NCBI RefSeq assembly: GCF_964355755.1
Contig: NC_092677.1
Coordinates: 10,252,601-10,316,600, forward strand
DNA length: 64,000 nt
Reading direction: 5' to 3'
From: Antedon mediterranea
Lineage: Eukaryota > Echinodermata > Crinoidea > Comatulida > Antedonidae
In this document: positions 5,131-48,300 of the stretch, in pieces
Numbering within the stretch: the first letter of the stretch is position 1
Layout: each line of letters opens with the position of its first letter
The notes under the pieces: model-generated
The model's database searches: none
The model's input: the letters and a program-made list of their open reading frames with translations, nothing else
Told to the model about the DNA's origin: nothing
Translations under genes and position numbers: made by a program

Positions 5131-22271
<17,141 letters not shown>

Positions 22272-22455: not shown

Positions 22456-25400
22456 ATGTTATCCATTCGTAAAGTTTTAGGCGAGGCTGGTTTTGCACGT
22501 ATTCCGAGGTATTACGGAACAGCTGCTAGAAATTCAAAAGAAGGTGAATCTCGCATAAATAACACAATTAATTATGTAAAAGTAGGCCCCTGGCTGGACT
22601 TTCTATAATAGTAGCCTGTTACTGTATGTGTGCAAACTCGACCAATCGGACTGACCGTCGTGTAGTGTTGCACATGTACAATCTAGGCAATGTCAATTCT
22701 GCAATAGGGGTACGTTGCATGCAGCATGGGGGTATACTTCCATGGTTGCATGTATAATATAATTAGTTGTGATTTGCAACTTGTCTAATATGACAATCAT
22801 TAATAATAATATTTGTAGCTAAAAATAGGAAATAGTTGTAACTGAAATCAAGTTGCAGCTGGAGGAAATACAAACCATGGAGGTATAAAATAGATTTTAT
22901 ACCTCCATGTACAAACTATATATAACTTAAGAATATGTACATTGTAATTGGGAAAACATAGTACAGTATACGCCATATTATCGTATATAGGATATAAAAC
23001 GTAAAGCACTAAATGTCCCAACTATAAACTGCTATTTTAATTAATGTTACGCTTTTTTTAAAAACAGTTTCATCCAATGGACTTCCTGATATGCCACCAT
23101 GTGACTTTGAGCCAGCACCATATAAGGTAAAAACTATATTTTATGATGTATGTCGAACTGTATTCTCGCATTCCACATTCTTTTCTTGCTTTTCGATTGC
23201 AACGGCATATTAATTATCATTCTACAATGTTTTTAAAATAGGGTCCCAGCTATGAAGAAACTAGAAAAATCAGAAATGAAAAATCAGCGCTGAATGTTAT
23301 GACCTATTATAAGAAGCCTGTACTGATCAATCAAGGTCATATGCAGTGGCTTTTTGACGAGACAGGTCGACGATACCTTGACCTTTTTGCTGGCATCGTC
23401 ACGGTCAGCGTGGGGCACTGTCATCCGTAAGTAAACATTTTTGTATATGTGGTATAAATGTCATGAATTATTATGTTTTAAGTAAATAAACTTTGTTGTA
23501 TATGTAAAAATATGTGCAAAATATGTACTGTATTCAAATACAATTTTTTTTTTCCCTAAAATTTCTCTTTTGAAATCATGTGTATTTAGCTGTGTCTAAA
23601 CTATCAAACTAGTTTAACAAAAAAGTGTGATATAAAATATGGCACAGATATGCCCAAATATGACATCATCAAGTCACATTTTGTTGTCACATAAAGTTTA
23701 ATAGTGTGGACAGAGTTCAAGTCACAGTTCACTAGTTCTAACAATTATACAATTTTTTGCCACTCAACCATATAAATCTTCCTTTTTTTTTATCAAGGAA
23801 AGTGAATGCTGTCTTAAAAGAGCAACTTGACCTATTGTGGCATACCACCAATATCTATATGCATCCCAGGGTGCACGAGTATGCTGTCAAACTAACAGAA
23901 CGTCTTCCAGAACCACTTAGTGTGAGTCTTATACAACTTGTCTTTCTTTATTTCCATTCATCATGAAATAAATATGCATAATACAGAGAAAAGAGGACTC
24001 TCAGAAGACCACACAAATATATATATATATACATTTTTTTTCTGGTATGATGAGCTCTCTGTAACCATTGTTTATGACTTTATTCTAGAGGTCAGTTAAC
24101 TTTGTTTCAAAAGGTGTAAACTCAGAGATGAAATATCAGAATTATGAAATCATATGAAAGATATAGAACATTTGACACTTTCATTTCCCATTTTTTAGGC
24201 CCTAGGCCCCCAACTAAAACATCTTAGATCTGCCACTGATAGCATCATGCTACAGAACCAATACACCATTGGAACTACCATGCAGTCACACCGATCATAT
24301 CTCATAAAAAATAACTCAAATATTGTGTTCTGTGTAGGTTTGTTTCTTTGTGAACAGTGGCAGTGAAGCAAATGATCTTGCAATGTTTATGGCCAGAGCA
24401 CACACAAAATCTAATGATATAATTGGACTCAGGTATGTTATTTTACAATGTTTTTTTAGTTATTAATTTAATATTAATTAGCAGGTCAAATGGCCAAGCA
24501 GTTAAAGCAGAGGCACCTTTTAAAAAAATCAGGATGGGTTTGAGTTCGAATCGCTCCTATTTCTGGTGGTGGAACAAGTCTTCTCTTATAGGACTATAAA
24601 CCGTAGATCCAGTGTACACCGTTTGCCTGTGTGCACTTTAAATAACCTAGTTTATTATTCAAGACAAGTAGAGGTTACTGGTCAGGAGGATTACCACTAT
24701 CTGATAGAACAGTTACTAATATACTATTGGTATTCTTTAACCTTGTGCATAAAGACTTAAAATAAAATAAAACCATCTTTAGAGAGTATAACCTGATTCC
24801 AAAAGAACAGATATTAATGTTCCTCTTTAGATTTAAATAAATGAAACAATAATCGTGAAGTTCATTCCAGTCTATCGCCACAACATGATTGCAATTATAC
24901 TTAAGGTATTATAAATCCAAAGGCAAATTACTGAAAAATGCCAATGCTGTGGGTATAAGTGGCTGGATCTCAATGGAGGTACAAAATAAAATAAGCAAAA
25001 AGTTAAATCAAAACCATAAATAAAACAGCAAGAAAGATTTGCAAAGATTTTTCGGGACTGGCCCTTCATTAGTGCAAGTATGGTATTATAATATAGTTAT
25101 TGTTTTATTCCCATAGGAGTGCCTACCATGGAATGATATCAAGTTTGATGGGTTTCACAGCAATGGGTAACTGGATGTTCCCACACGTTGCAAAGAATGC
25201 TGGCATTCAGACATCTGTGAATGCAGATCCATTTAGAGGCCCATGGGGTGGGAAAAACTGCAGAGATTCTCCAGTTCAGGTAATTATGTAGATTCCATAT
25301 TAAGGGGTACCTTCGTAACCCAACAAAGTGTCCCCTGATTAGGTGTTCAAATGAACCTTTAAAGGGTGGTAAAAACATTTATTATTTCAATTATATTAAG

Positions 25401-28400
25401 CATGTATGCCATAATAATAAACTTTTACCTTTTTCTTTAATTTGATAGTACCCTACTATTTTTTTTTCAGACTATCAGGTCATGTGACTGTGTTGCTGGA
25501 CAGTGCCTTGCCAAAGATATGTATGTTGACCAGGTCAATGACCTCCTCCAACACTGCACACCAAAGAAGATCGCTGCTGTTATAGCAGAGTCCATTCAAG
25601 TAAAAATAATTTAAATAATTTTTTTAGCATGTAGATGATAATACTAGTAATAGTACAATTGCCTATGTTTTTAAATGTATATATTTTGATATTTGACAGG
25701 GAGTGGCTGGTGGTATTCAGTTTCCAAAAGGCTTCTTAAAGGAAGCGTTTGAGCTTGCTCGAGCGAAAGGCGGTCTTTGCATCTCGGATGAAGTACAAAC
25801 CGGGTTCGGTCGGATGGGCAGTCACTTCTGGGGATTTGAAACTCACGATGTTATGCCTGATATTGGTAATAAAAAACTACGGTCATTTAACTACATTGAA
25901 AACTCTAACAACATGAATCCTTATTTGGTCTAATGGGCTGTTATCTTAAAAAATTCAAACTGTTGATGTTGGGAAGGTGCCATCAATTATACTGACCTAA
26001 ATCCAAAATCCACCACACTGGGTTCAGTGGCATTACGGCTATGAGCGCTGAGAAGTGCCCAGACGAAAACAAATGTGTCGAAAAAGGCTAAAAACGGCCG
26101 AAGCCTCCAGCGTTGGAGGGCCACTTAGGGTTCATAAACCAGGGGCCTCAAGTCCGATGTTATGCCACTGACTGGGTGGGTCAGATGAACAATCGTTTAC
26201 AGGGTTTTGTTACTCTTTATTTTGATGCCTGGTATCGAAAATGCTCATTTAATTTTAATACAGTCTTGTTTTACTTGTTTTAGTTGTTATGGCAAAAGGA
26301 ATGGGTAATGGATTTCCATTGGCTGCTGTTGTAACAACGCCAGGTATTACCACTTATTGCTTCTTGCATATATATATATATATCAGCAAGGTCACCAACA
26401 CACGCAAAGTTTTCACTACCAATTATTACAATTCAATCTGATAATATTAATGTTGTTTATCTATTTAGAGATTGCCCAGACAATGCACCAAGCCTTGCAT
26501 TTCAATACATTTGGTGGAAACCCAATGTCATGTGCAGTTGGATCAGCTGTTCTTGATGTAAGTAACCTATGAACCATGACCTTTTAATTATTGACCTTTG
26601 AATGGAAACCTAATGTCATGCGCAGTTAGATCAGCTGTTCTTGATGTAAGTAGAGTACAATCGAAATATAACCTATGAACCTTGACATTTTAATTATTGA
26701 CCTTTGAATGGAAACCTAATGTCATGCGCAGTTAGATCAGCTGTTCTTGATGTAAGTAGAGTACAATCGAAATATAACCTATGAACCTTGACATTTTAAT
26801 TATTGACCTTTGAATGGAAACCCAATTTCATGCGCAGTTAGATCAGCTGTTCTTGATGTAAGTAGAGTACAATCGAAATATAACCTATGAACCTTGACCA
26901 TTTAATTATTAACCTTTGAATGGCAACCCAATTTCATGCGCAGTTAGATCAGCTGTTCTTGATGTAAGTAGAGTACAACCAAAATATAACCTATGAACCT
27001 TGACCATTTAATTATTGATCTTTGAATGGCAACCTAATGTCATGCGCAGTTAGATCAGCTGTTCTTGATGTAAGTAGAGTACAATCGAAATATAACCTAT
27101 GAACCGTGACCATTTAATTATTGACCTTTGAATGGAAACCCAATTTCATGCGCAGTTAGATCAGCTGTTCTTGATGTAAGTAGAGTACAATCGAAATATA
27201 ACCTATGAACCTTGACCATTTAATTATTGACCTTTGAATGGAAACCCAATTTCATGCGCAGTTAGATCAGCTGTTCTTGATGTAAGTAGAGTACAACCAA
27301 AATATAACCTATGAACCTTGACCATTTAATTATTGACCTTTGAATGGAAACCCAATTTCATGCGCAGTTAGATCAGCTGTTCTTGATGTAAGTAGAGTAC
27401 AACCAAAATATAACCTATGAACCGTGACCATTTAATTATTGAACTTCGAAATGTGAACCTATTCACCTATCATATATGTATGTCTTTGTGACATAGGTTA
27501 TGGATGAAGAAGGAAGTCAAGCCAACTGCGCTGATGTTGGCACGTACATGCTCCTGGAGTTGGCAAAGCTTCGGGACGAGTTTGAAGTTGTTGGAGATGT
27601 CCGCGGCAAAGGGTTGATGATTGGAGTTGAGCTGGTCGCAGATAAGGTCAGTTTCCTATAATTATTTCAATTATACTTATGGACACAAAGAGAAACATCT
27701 ACGAATCAATATAGTATTAGGCAAAAAGATGAACAAATCAAGTCTTAAATTATTTCAGATATACAGACCATTTTCACCCTTATGTAGAATATTTTAATAT
27801 ATTTTGTAATTTAGGTTTTAATGTCTTGTTTAAAGTGTAGATTTTCAGAATAATACTTATGTAATGTAAAATTTACCATAGGCTTCAAGAAAACCTCTGC
27901 AACCAGAAGAAGTTGGTCACATATGGGAGAGTACCAAGGACCTTGGTGTGCTATTCGGTAAAGGAGGTCTGCATGGTAATGTAAGTACACGTCTCATGGT
28001 ACAGTAAGGAATCGCATGTGAGAATTTTTTATTTATTTATTTCATACACATCCAACAGGATATATAAACTGTTTGATATGTTATCGTGCATATAAACTAA
28101 GTCTCATTTTGAGGCTTAGGGAGTGGAGTTGAAAGAGTTGTGAGTGCCACTAGTGCTACTAGGTCAGGATTGAAACTTGGACATTGGGATTGGAAGGCAA
28201 GCATGTTAATCACCAGGCTACAGCTCCACTACTGCTACTACTAAGCTACGACATGTTGTCGTAACCTGTCTTTTTTATTACTCTTGTTGTCCGGTCCTCA
28301 CATTTATTTTGGCCACATTTTTTTTGGTAGCCTCCTGTAATGATATCGGAAGGTTATTCCACACTTTAGCACCAGTAACTTGAAATGACAACAATTTGTA

Positions 28401-28612
28401 CCCACAATGATCTTGGGTATAACCACTTTTAAAATGTTTGAGTGTTGTAACCCTGTCTATCAATGACCAGTTCAATTTAATACAAGACATTGTTTGTGTT
28501 GTTTTAGGTGCTGCGAATAAAACCACCCATGTGTATCACAAGGCAGGATGTTGATTTTGGTACAGCCGTGCTAAAGAGGGCGCTAGAACACCACAGAGAT
28601 ACCTACTTGTAG
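22456..28612 (+). CDS. AGXT2: AGXT2, mitochondrial alanine-glyoxylate aminotransferase 2
   Basis: Complete, 13 exons: 22456-22543, 23068-23126, 23242-23426, 23798-23921, 24338-24432, 25117-25279, 25471-25599, 25700-25865, 26284-26343, 26469-26557, 27497-27646, 27882-27980, 28508-28612; 1512 nt, 503 aa (human 514). It is a class III PLP aminotransferase of mitochondria that moves amino groups from alanine, beta-aminoisobutyrate or methylated arginines to glyoxylate or pyruvate. Residues 1-28 are Arg-rich and lack acids early on, as in a mitochondrial targeting peptide. Visible: [35 protein letters not shown] (158-164), DEVQTGFGR with Asp311 for the PLP ring nitrogen, and [11 protein letters not shown] with Schiff-base Lys341. 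The usual EPIQG reads ESIQG here. Exon 10 is followed by eight tandem copies of its own 3' end and donor. Divergent from TMEM67. Confidence 0.97.
22876..22909. repeat. perfect 16-bp hairpin
   Basis: CATGGAGGTATAAAAT and its exact inverse ATTTTATACCTCCATG are separated by only two bases (AG). It lies in AGXT2 intron 1. No similar sequence flanks it, so whether it is a tiny MITE or a chance cruciform cannot be said. Confidence 0.8.
23586..23717. mobile_element. TIR family 1 MITE
   Basis: Ends AGCTGTGTCTAAACTATC and TTTAATAGTGTGGACAGAG with the family's inner words. In AGXT2 intron 3, about 80 bp before exon 4. Confidence 0.8.
24482..24665 (+). mobile_element. tRNA-derived SINE (Leu/Ser-like head)
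   Basis: ATGGCCAAGCAGTTAAAGCA resembles the A-box arm of a Leu/Ser tRNA and GAGTTCGAATCGCTCC the B box. The body TGGTGGAACAAGTCTTCTC and GGACTATAAACCGTAGATCC is shared with 30755-31003. In AGXT2 intron 5. Confidence 0.7.
24905..25080 (-). repeat. dispersed repeat with CTCCATTGAGATCCAGCC
   Basis: Minus-strand copy of a family also present at 29985-30112 and 33536-33712 on the plus strand and as a weak piece near 38232-38310. Shared words are GCACTRATGAA, TTGCTTATTTTATTTTG, CTCCATTGAGATCCAGCCAC and TTTGCCTTTGGATTTATA. The constant orientation of the words suggests the 3' part of a retroelement, but no domain is recognisable. Confidence 0.6.
26025..26170. mobile_element. hAT-like MITE with 8-bp target duplication
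   Basis: Termini CAGTGGCATTACGGC and GATGTTATGCCACTG are inverted repeats. The flanks ACTGGGTT (left) and ACTGGGTG (right) agree at 7 of 8 positions, the target-site length of hAT transposons. Related copies: 32698-32898 and a piece at 31263-31390. In AGXT2 intron 8. Confidence 0.8.
26512..27437 (+). repeat. 106-bp tandem array of AGXT2 exon 10 end plus splice donor
   Basis: The last ~45 bases of exon 10 and its donor (GAT|GTAAGTA at 26558) are followed by eight more copies with donors at 26646, 26752, 26858, 26964, 27070, 27176, 27282 and 27388: first spacing 88, then exactly 106 each time. Copies read GCAGTTAGATCAG where the exon reads GCAGTTGGATCAG, so the array has homogenised apart from the coding copy. 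Each repeat keeps GATGTAAGT intact but has no polypyrimidine-AG acceptor. Confidence 0.95.
28105..28235 (-). mobile_element. tRNA-derived SINE, second family
   Basis: Copy of the element at 11158-11312, with GAGGCTTAGGGAGTGGAGTT, ACTAGGTCAGGATTGAAAC and GGCAAGCATGTTAATCACCA in the same order. In AGXT2 intron 12. Confidence 0.65.
28278..28507 (-). mobile_element. LINE reverse-transcriptase C-terminal remnant
   Basis: The minus-strand frame ends in a block [16 protein letters not shown], the WNxLP signature found just after the reverse transcriptase in many non-LTR retrotransposons. It directly abuts the acceptor of AGXT2 exon 13, so the fragment supplies the end of intron 12. No other part of the element remains. 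Confidence 0.7.
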
Positions 28613-31750: not shown

Positions 31751-32062
31751 TACAGTATTTCTGTATTGTACAGTATTTCTGTATTGTACAGTATTTCTGT
31801 ATTGTACAGTATTTCTGTATTGTACAGTATTTCTGTATTGTACAGTATTTCTGTATTGTACAGTATTTCTGTATTGTACAGTATTTCTGTATTGTACAGT
31901 ATTTCTGTATTGTACAGTATTTCTGTATTGTACAGTATTTCTGTATTGTACAATATTTCTGTATTGTACAGTATTTCTGTATTGTACAGTATTTCTGTAT
32001 TGTACAGTATTTCTGTATTGTACAGTATTTCTGTATTGTACAGTATTTCTGTATTGTACAGT
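31751..32062. repeat. 18-bp minisatellite, ~17 copies
   Basis: TACAGTATTTCTGTATTG repeated almost without change (one A variant near 31951). Each unit contains ACAG-n5-CTGT and can form a small stem. The 18-bp period leaves all frames open on both strands, which explains the long frames here. Confidence 0.97.
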
Positions 32063-45397: not shown

Positions 45398-48300
45398 TAG
45401 TAGAGCAGTTAATGACATGAGCTGTGCATTTTATTACCAAAGCATGAAACTTGGCACAAAGTTTCTTTAATGTATATAGATTCAAAATATCGGGGGGTGC
45501 CAAGTGTCCAACGTCCGGTATGGCGGCCATCTTGATTTCAAAATGGCCACCATAAAAACAAAAAATGTTTATATCTTGGCAACTATACACATTAGAGACT
45601 TAATTATGGTCTCAAATTGTTCACAAACTATATATTTCTATTTGCTCTAATGAAAATTTTCGTCCAAAAATGACCGGAAATGACGTTTCTTTCAGTTTGA
45701 CCTTTGACCTCGTATTTGTATATCTCTGTAACTACTGGTCTTTTTCAATCGATTTTGGTGTCATTTTGTTCAGAATAAAAACATTTATATTAGTAGTAAT
45801 GAAACATTTTCACATAAAATGACCGGAAATACAATTTATGACCTTTGACATTTATTTATTGATTTTTAATTAGGTGAATATACTGTATGTGGTTTTTGTT
45901 GGTCTTTGAACTTTGACCTGATAGGCGTAATTATATTAAATGATTAATGGACTTAAATTGTATATAGTACATAGAATTGGTAAACATTGTGCTTGATGGT
46001 ACCATTAGTTCAATGATGTTGGCACCTTCTGATTCGCTAAAAGTTTTAATAGTTTGACAGAGGAAATAACATACATGTTATGGAATACCGTCAAATCTCG
46101 AAAAGGTGATAGTATGAGCTTCTTTTCGAGATAGACTGTATTTGAATGTCAAATGAAAACTATGATGATCGTGTTTATATCAATATATTATTAATGACCT
46201 TACAAAGAACCCTTTATATTTCAACAATCAAGCCTCAGTTATTCTACAATGTATTGTTTTCCAAGTGGTATTTTGATTGTATCTTCTTTTTGTATGCTTC
46301 CTCGGTTAATATGGTCCTACCCCTCCTTCTTTGTCTGTAGATGGTCTTATACCCCATTCTTTGTCTGTGGATGGTCTTATACCCCATTCTTTGTCTGTGG
46401 ATGGTCTTATACCCTCTTCTTTGTCTGTGGATGGTCTTACACCCCCTTCTGTGTGTGTTGATGGTATTACACCCCTTTCTTTATGTGTGGATGGTCTTAC
46501 ACCCCTTTCTTTGTATGTAGATGGTCTTCCACCCCTTCTTTGTCTGTGAATGGTCCTACACTTCCTTCTTTGTCTGTGGATGGTCCTACACCCCCTTCTT
46601 TGTCTGTGGATGGTCTTATACCCCCTTCTTTGTCTGTAAGTGGTCCTATACCCTTTCTTTGTCAGTGGATGGTCTTACACCCCCTTCTTTGTCTGTGGAC
46701 GGTCCTACACCCCCTTCTTTGTCTGTGGATGGTCTTACACCCCTTTCTTTGTCTGTGGACGGTATTATACCCCCTTCTGTGCCTGTTGATGGTATTACAC
46801 CCTTTGCTTTGTCTGTTGATGGTATTACACCCTTTTCTTTGTCTGTTGATGGTATTACACCCTTTTCTTTGTCTGTGGATGGTATTACACCCCTTTTTTT
46901 GTGTGTGGATGGTATTACACCCCTTTTTTTGTGTGTGGATGGTCTTACACCTTTTTCTTTGTGTGTGGATGGTCTTACACCCCTTCTTTGTCTGTGGATG
47001 GTCTTACACCCCCTTCTTTCTCTGTCGATGGTCTTATACCCCTTCTTTGTCTGTGAATGGTCTTATACCCCATTCTTTGTCTGTGGATGGTCCTACATCC
47101 CCTTCTTTGTCTGTGGATGGTCCTACACCCCCTTCTTTGTCTGTGGATGGTCCTACACCCCCTTCTTTGTCTGTGGATGGTCTTATACCCCCTTCTTTGT
47201 CTGTAAGTGGTCCTATACCCCCTTCTTTGTCAGTGGATGGTCTTACACCCCCTTCTTTGTCTGTGGAGGGTCCTACGCCCCCTTCTTGGTCTGTGGATGG
47301 TCTTACACCCACTTCTTTGTCTGTGGATGGTCTTATACCCCCTTCTTTGTCTGTAAGTGGTCCTATACCCCCTTCTTTGTCAGTGGATGGTCTTACACCC
47401 CCTTCTTTGTCTGTGGAGGGTCCTACGCCCCCTTCTTGGTCTGTGGATGGTCTACACCCCCTTCTTTGTCTGTGGATGGTCTTATACCCCCTTCTTTGTC
47501 TGTAAGTGGTCCTATACCCCCTTCTTTGTCAGTGGATGGTCTTACATCCCCTTCTTTGTCTGTGGAGGGTCCTACGCCCCCTTAATTATTTGTCTGCGGA
47601 TGGTCTTACACCCCCTTCTTTGTCTGTGGATGGTCTTACACCCCCTTCTTTGTCTGTGGATGGTCCTACACCCCCTTCTTTGTCTGTAGATGGCCTTCCC
47701 CTTTCTTTGTCTGTTGATGGTCTGTGGATGGTCTTACACCCCCTTCTTTGTCTGTGGATGGTCTTATACCCCCTTCTTTGTCTGTAAGTGGTCCTATACC
47801 CCCTTCTTTGTCAGTGGATGGTCTTACATCCCCTTCTTTGTCTGTGGAGGGTCCTACGCCCCCTTATTTGTCTGTGGATGGTCTTACACCCCCTTCTTTG
47901 TCTATGGATGGTCTTACACCCCCTTCTTTGTCTGTGGATGGTCCTACACCCCCTTCTTTGTCTGTAGATGGCCTTCCCCTTTCTTTGTCTGTGGATGGTC
48001 TTATACCCCCTTCTTTGTGTGTGGATGGTCTTACACCCCCTTCTTTGTCTGTGGATGGTCTTATACCCCCTTCTTTGTCTGTGGATGGTCTTATACCCCC
48101 TTCTTTGTCTGTGGGTGGTCTTATACCCCCTTCTTTGTCTGTGGATGGTCTGGACCCACTACTTTGATTGATTAAATCAGACATTGTTTCTTGTATGATT
48201 AGGAGACCAAGACCTTCAAAGTGAAAGTCCACAGGTGGATATCCCTAAAAAGGTCTTGTACAGAACAGTATATTGTAGGTCCATGTCACTAATTTGAGGA

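Follow-up and report, generated by a model that had tools for sequence, protein, structure and literature searches.

This study examined a 64-kb stretch of the genome of Antedon mediterranea (GCF_964355755.1, NC_092677.1, 10,252,601-10,316,600, forward strand; assembly of 354 Mb in 18 contigs), here called the window and labelled contig C8, and specifically a run of splice donors in intron 10 of an AGXT2-like aminotransferase gene. Behind exon 10 lie eight tandem units, each a copy of the end of the exon, its donor and part of the intron, and this array is probably a neutral exon-edge minisatellite, of the kind called 'mirages' in amphioxus, that began as a small tandem duplication and has left the first donor in use. 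A preliminary description of the window had offered two readings, a decoy-donor cluster and a neutral satellite that arose at the edge of an exon, and it is the second that fits both the evidence and the amphioxus examples. The evidence consists of the anatomy of the array, its exon origin, the same structure in at least three other genes, and the lack of any detectable sparing of the donors.

Structure of the donor array

The 3' end of exon 10 and the eight 106-bp tandem units behind it occupy 26516-27451 by inspection of the sequence (window positions; Table 1). Every 106 bp hold 42 nt derived from the exon and a total of 64 nt derived from the intron, with the donor GAT/GTAAGT (a slash marks the cut) between them. 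The word GATGTAAGT starts at 26555, at 26643, and then each 106 bp up to 27385, intact in 9/9 donors, and the corresponding cuts fall at 26558, 26646, and onward in the same steps to 27388. The nine-fold array with a first spacing of 88 bp and then seven of 106 bp, as previously described, was thus recovered, and Tandem Repeats Finder (TRF) reported it independently at 26563-27450, with a period of 106, 8.4 copies, 96% matches, and a score of 1594, values too high for an array due to chance. A search of the 354-Mb assembly with the unit, at its given sensitivity, returned ten matches, and all ten lay inside the array, the exon copy included.

Comparison of the first unit with the exon gave three differences over the 42 exonic nt, two of them fixed in all eight units, including one that changes a glycine codon to one for arginine, while the third varies among units. 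All eight units also carry, just 3' of the donor, the 18 bp AGAGTACAATCGAAATAT, in which two letters are variable (26652-26669 in the first unit), and which is missing from the exon copy (junction 26563/26564 at the real donor); the founder unit may have gained it by insertion, or the exon copy may have lost it. In the one allele of the one assembly, variants are common to several units, as unit turnover predicts, and the last unit has a diverged tail. The breakpoint neighbourhoods in the exon (GGTGGAAACC) and in the intron (GAAATGTGAACC) have short matches in common, which are suggestive, and only suggestive, of a duplication origin. The 109-nt stretch that separates the acceptor from the last donor probably represents much of the original short intron.

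The host gene and its predicted splicing

The gene model has 12 introns, all with GT...AG ends, and the product matches the PF00202 aminotransferase family over its full length (exons 2-13, E 3.5e-85). In the model exons 1 and 2 meet out of phase, and absolute residue numbers are uncertain. Among the 60 best of 191 matches to solved chains the closest was ethanolamine-phosphate phospho-lyase (6tor, E 1.8e-93), and the name AGXT2 was absent from those 60; the gene is presumably AGXT2, an identity taken from the preliminary description and from the human protein. The junction of exons 10 and 11 (LD/VM) aligns to 6tor without a gap, and joining the first donor directly to exon 11 therefore gives the expected protein. 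Translation from each of the eight downstream donors ended in ...AVLD-VSNL-stop. The early stop and the loss of 117 residues that had been predicted thus hold for 8/8 donors, but the number Asp386, given for the last residue before the read-through, was not confirmed, the exon 1-2 junction being out of phase.

The predicted energy of the duplex with U1 small nuclear RNA (snRNA) was -7.0 for all nine donors alike. The genome contains 42 U1 snRNA matches, and the one copy that was read begins ATACTTACCTG; the matches are clustered at C5:15664856-15752909, often about 1.7-1.9 kb apart. Masking of the later donors by RNA structure was considered and rejected, as the predicted unpaired probability of the real donor (0.39) falls within that of the others (0.34-0.50). 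No Rfam match reached the gathering score in the 64-kb window. Acceptors were scored with a crude matrix from the 12 acceptors of the gene itself, each left out of its own matrix. The real acceptors scored 1.2-10.7 and all other AGs of intron 10 at most 0.6, and by this crude measure no good acceptor was found inside the units, in agreement with the earlier statement that they have none. Lying in an existing intron and without a good acceptor, the units do not make a new donor-acceptor pair within the exon.

Exon-edge arrays in other genes

Three AGGTAAGT words in a row were searched for throughout the genome, at spacings of 40-70 (441 places) and 72-102 (277 places), and loci were read from the first 100 places of each set, which gave 13 array loci outside the window. 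Among the places listed, three of the 13 had an exon edge with protein identity (DHX8-, DNAH3- and TDP2-like; Table 1), and the genome thus has such arrays in no fewer than three genes besides the AGXT2-like one.

The DHX8-like exon ends in HLTEPP and is followed by 22 donors, the real one included, which are 37 bp apart except for one 60-bp step that conceals a further copy whose donor was lost by deletion. Of these donors, 21 read GTAAGT and one GTAAGC. No Pfam match was found for the exon piece, and its identity rests on the PDB match; DHX8 is a splicing helicase, here itself the host of a donor array. The DNAH3-like exon ends in YDKVAK and has 82 donors (real one included) exactly 68 bp apart, 82/82 of them GTAAGT and 80/82 AAG/GTAAGT, in an intron of 5.6 kb; the 80 inner units represent only 7 sequence variants. 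Its top match (E 1.3e-15) was a chain of 4069 residues labelled 'putative malate dehydrogenase 1B', a label unfit for that length, and a Pfam dynein stalk match (E 0.00047) was below the cut-off, as was the Pfam match of the TDP2-like piece (E 0.0034). The TDP2-like exon ends in NLRDSE; the 29 anchored copies of this edge are spaced at about 31 bp, and their donors are GTAAGT (27), GTTAGT (1) and GTATTA (1). A fifth array, L031 (C3:1149300-1152000), has 11 donors at 83 bp behind an exon-like piece (NKKNAKAVQLVIALSGIKVCQVANEK) for which no protein match was found.

Table 1. Features of the AGXT2-like locus (window positions) and of the exon-edge arrays in three other genes.
Feature	Position	Strand	Evidence
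AGXT2-like class-III aminotransferase gene, 13 exons modelled (junction 1-2 unsettled)	22456..28612	+	PF00202
Exon 10 of the AGXT2-like gene, 89 nt	26469..26557	+	Gene model, translation, exon-unit comparison
Source of the repeat, last 42 nt of exon 10	26516-26557	+	Exon-unit comparison
Authentic donor GAT/GTAAGT, cut before 26558	26555..26563	+	Junction 10-11 aligns gaplessly to 6tor
Read-through Val-Ser-Asn-Leu-stop	26558..26572	+	8/8 downstream donors
Eight 106-bp tandem units, last unit with diverged tail	26604..27451	+	TRF, unit alignment
Eight downstream GATGTAAGT copies (starts 26643, 26749, 26855, 26961, 27067, 27173, 27279, 27385)	26643..27393	+	
Intron remnant, 109 nt, last donor to acceptor	27388..27496	+	
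Exon 11, adjoins exon 10 in the protein	27497..27646	+	Gene model, 6tor alignment
DHX8-like exon edge	L009 2115-3140 (with L026)		PDB match to DHX8, E 9.8e-20
DNAH3-like exon edge	C1:19358200-19372200 (L025 and L010 joined)	-	DNAH3 match, E 6e-15
TDP2-like exon edge	L030 1400-2700		TDP2 match, E 1.4e-10

Of the remaining loci, one with 50-bp units (L028, C1:22714400-22718400) has a possible but doubtful exon edge without protein identification, and the exon edge of L027 is likewise doubtful. No convincing exon was seen at the first donor of L005, L006, L008, L029, L032 and L033 (with the upstream piece L035), and in L007 units without a donor continue upstream of the first donor, so that an exon edge could not be judged. 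L006 and L007 (C1:2.48 Mb and 3.42 Mb, about 0.9 Mb apart) share one 66-bp satellite unit, many copies of which carry the donor word AGGTAAGT; it is dispersed, and no exon was seen with it.

In the DHX8- and TDP2-like genes the read-through stop precedes the first downstream donor. In the DNAH3-like gene the first downstream donor lies at 68 nt and the stop starts one base later, 69 nt from the real donor; use of that downstream donor would shift the frame, while use of any later one would include the stop. Between last donor and acceptor lie 109 (AGXT2), 113 (DNAH3), 86 (DHX8) and 222 nt (TDP2), lengths that look as if shorter introns had grown from the exon side.

Relation to known systems

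The term mirage denotes a minisatellite-like repeat in which an exon-intron boundary has been duplicated in tandem; such repeats have been described in the amphioxus genes Adh3, globin (BflGb6, BflGb9), TnC and PGBD5 (PMC3087553, PMC3902484). Length instability is known for some of them, and splicing was reported to proceed undisturbed (PMC3087553, PMC3902484). Their units measure 10-72 bp in Adh3 and 150-160 bp in the globins (PMC3087553), and the PGBD5 mirage includes 3 x 108 bp (PMC3902484). The AGXT2-like array belongs to this type: its repeat spans an exon-intron boundary (42 nt of exon, donor and intron, in eight units), it carries potential cryptic splice signals (GAT/GTAAGT in 8/8 units, U1 duplex -7.0), and, like the BflGb9 mirage, it duplicates a 3' exon boundary. 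What differs from the amphioxus examples is the host gene and the number of copies, which is 8 extra ones in the AGXT2-like gene and 81 in the DNAH3-like gene. The low GC content (34% in the window, 31-39% in 12 sampled pieces) and the absence of a GFP-family match in the assembly do not favour Branchiostoma, which has a GC content of about 41% and carries GFP genes; COX1 likewise gave no match, while GFP was also negative in every control genome and bantam was negative throughout, controls included. In the literature searched for mirage minisatellites at exons, none was found outside amphioxus.

Variable internal tandem repeats at human exon-intron boundaries, some of which form new introns (PMC2812944), are likewise minisatellites at exon edges in another animal; however, that report concerns only genes in segmental duplications and describes changed splicing, whereas the AGXT2 unit matches a single genomic place. 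A pseudo-5' splice site that traps U1 has been described for oestrogen receptor alpha with HMGA1a (PMC6002489), and resembles the array in that an extra donor-like site beside the authentic one could retain U1; it is a single site, however, while the AGXT2-like locus has an array whose donors show no sign of constraint. Intron gain by tandem genomic duplication (PMC4974935, PMC3443670) also starts from a small duplication with splice-like sequence; here, in contrast, an existing intron was lengthened and no new one is predicted.

Origin and splicing of the array

In the most probable history, a tandem duplication first took in the final 42 nt of exon 10 together with the donor and a portion of a short intron, and a diverged copy was then amplified to eight, with exchange among units and partial homogenisation. 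The intact donors would reflect a young, homogeneous array and not retention by selection. Splicing would still proceed from the first donor, either because it is paired with the exon 10 acceptor across the 89-nt exon (exon definition) or because, being made first, it is committed as it is transcribed, and any leakage to later donors would yield a transcript open to nonsense-mediated decay. Against a preference for the first donor stand the equal predicted U1 pairing of all nine and the position of the last one, which is nearest to the acceptor. A rule favouring the nearest donor, on the other hand, would give a truncated protein in each of the four named genes, and nearness is thus not deciding if these genes work; the exons read suggest that the AGXT2-, DNAH3-, DHX8- and TDP2-like genes do.

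In a bolder form, this genome would repeatedly make donor arrays (82 GTAAGT in a dynein gene, 22 in DHX8) and tolerate them through commitment to the first donor after the acceptor, whatever the number or nearness of its rivals, with slight leakage feeding nonsense-mediated decay and array length acting as an unstable, heritable dial of output. This extension is speculative and we consider it unlikely. An array may also have a decoy effect without any selection for it.

Alternatively, the array could be a mildly harmful passenger that diverts some splicing to later donors, lowers output and persists as selection is weak. The nine donors are of equal predicted strength, the last is only 109 nt from the acceptor, and the predicted accessibility of the real donor (0.39) lies within the range of the rest (0.34-0.50), all of which would permit such leakage. 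However, the published mirages were reported not to make aberrant mRNAs (PMC3087553, PMC3902484), and in the DNAH3-like gene an array of 82 donors persists, so that a harmful array appears improbable.

Constraint on the donors

The decoy cluster of the preliminary description, taken here as one kept by selection whose extra donors would hold the U1 small nuclear ribonucleoprotein (snRNP) or divert part of the splicing to a truncated transcript and so tune AGXT2 output, has in its favour the equal predicted pairing of the nine donors with U1 (including the copy beginning ATACTTACCTG) and the same early stop from all eight downstream donors. The preliminary description found it suggestive that eight donors had stayed intact while the rest of the unit drifted. 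The drift reported outside the donor was correct in that all variable columns lie there, but it is slight, amounting to only 10 of the 106 columns in units 1-7 and 12 of 106 over all eight. None of them lies in the donor 9-mer, but the probability that random placement spares a 9-mer is 40% for 10 variable columns and 32% for 12.

Pooling of the AGXT2, DNAH3, TDP2, DHX8 and L031 arrays gave seven variable donor columns where 7.3 were expected (P = 0.55), or four against 6.14 (P = 0.20) when one TDP2 unit with an insertion was dropped; the four arrays with protein identity, L031 being omitted, gave four against 5.81 (P = 0.24). Since zero variable donor columns in the pool would have a neutral P of 0.0003, the test was able to detect strong constraint. 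The extra units pooled were 7/8 (AGXT2), 80/81 (DNAH3), 27/28 (TDP2), 9/10 (L031) and 21/21 anchored copies (DHX8); every gene's exon copy was left out, as was the last unit in four of the arrays. Two copies outside the pool, the dropped last DNAH3 unit with a changed donor (AAA/GTAAGT) and the unanchored DHX8-like copy with a deleted donor, also speak against constraint. The expectation that the donor 9-mer varies less than the rest of the unit was accordingly not borne out (P 0.32-0.40 in the AGXT2 array; 7 against 7.3, or 4 against 6.14, in the pool), and selection on the donors is unsupported in the AGXT2 array and in the five arrays together.

Several observations nevertheless weigh against neutrality. 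In the AGXT2 array the longest invariant run spans 45 columns and encloses the donor (P = 0.049 for 10 variable columns and 0.016 for 12), a run that was picked post hoc and that contains both fixed differences between exon and units. GT is retained in 8/8 AGXT2 units, and the GT columns are invariant in the five-array pool once the TDP2 insertion unit is dropped, which is not decisive with about six variable donor columns expected; weak constraint may be compatible with such a pool. The donor searches also demanded an exact AGGTAAGT, which biases the pool toward intact donors and toward apparent constraint. Changed or lost donors in the DHX8- and TDP2-like arrays, together with the recurrence of the same structure in unrelated genes, which suggests a mutational cause, make a selected decoy very improbable. 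That the units are a remnant or seed of exon duplication or intron gain and could become small exons, as proposed for mirage units in PMC3087553, is hardly credible with a length of 106 bp, which is not a multiple of three, and a best acceptor score of 0.6 against 1.2-10.7.

Tandem repeats in the genome

Counted at a period of at least 10, at least 3 copies and a score of at least 200, minisatellites are common in this genome: the 64-kb window contains 8 arrays, and 12 places chosen at round coordinates, 120 kb in all, contain 4. GC content is 34% in the window and 31-39% in the 12 sampled pieces. Further arrays of the window lie at 12004-12224, 31751-32062, 19720-20924 and 46311-48151, and near-perfect examples among the window arrays are 24 bp x 9.2 at 100% and 18 bp x 17.3 at 99%.

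Over-representation of donor words in tandem arrays was considered and rejected. Three AGGTAAGT in a row were rarer than the reversed word both at spacings of 40-70 (120 + 321 = 441 against 1452 + 128 = 1580) and at 72-102 (99 + 178 = 277 against 1409 + 93 = 1502), the counts being of overlapping places and not of loci. For the acceptor-like word TTTGCAGG the bias was the opposite, with 58 places for the word and 0 for its reverse, 47 of the 58 being in one array; a 52-bp array of about 50 copies at C10:7437236-7439896 carries this word.

Significance

The choice between competing donors has mostly been studied with few sites in constructs. Here, natural genes have 9, 22, 27 and 82 near-identical donors behind a single exon, the later of which are predicted to truncate the protein or shift its frame, and RNA from such genes would bear on the relative parts played by exon definition, order of transcription and nearness to the acceptor. 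The find also suggests that splice-like repeats should not be taken as regulation without a test of constraint. The AGXT2-like array itself is of an already described type, and the most interesting result is a by-product of its study, the recurrence and size of exon-edge arrays in this genome, with donor competitions from 9- to 82-fold. These arrays suggest that mirages are a recurrent route by which introns lengthen.
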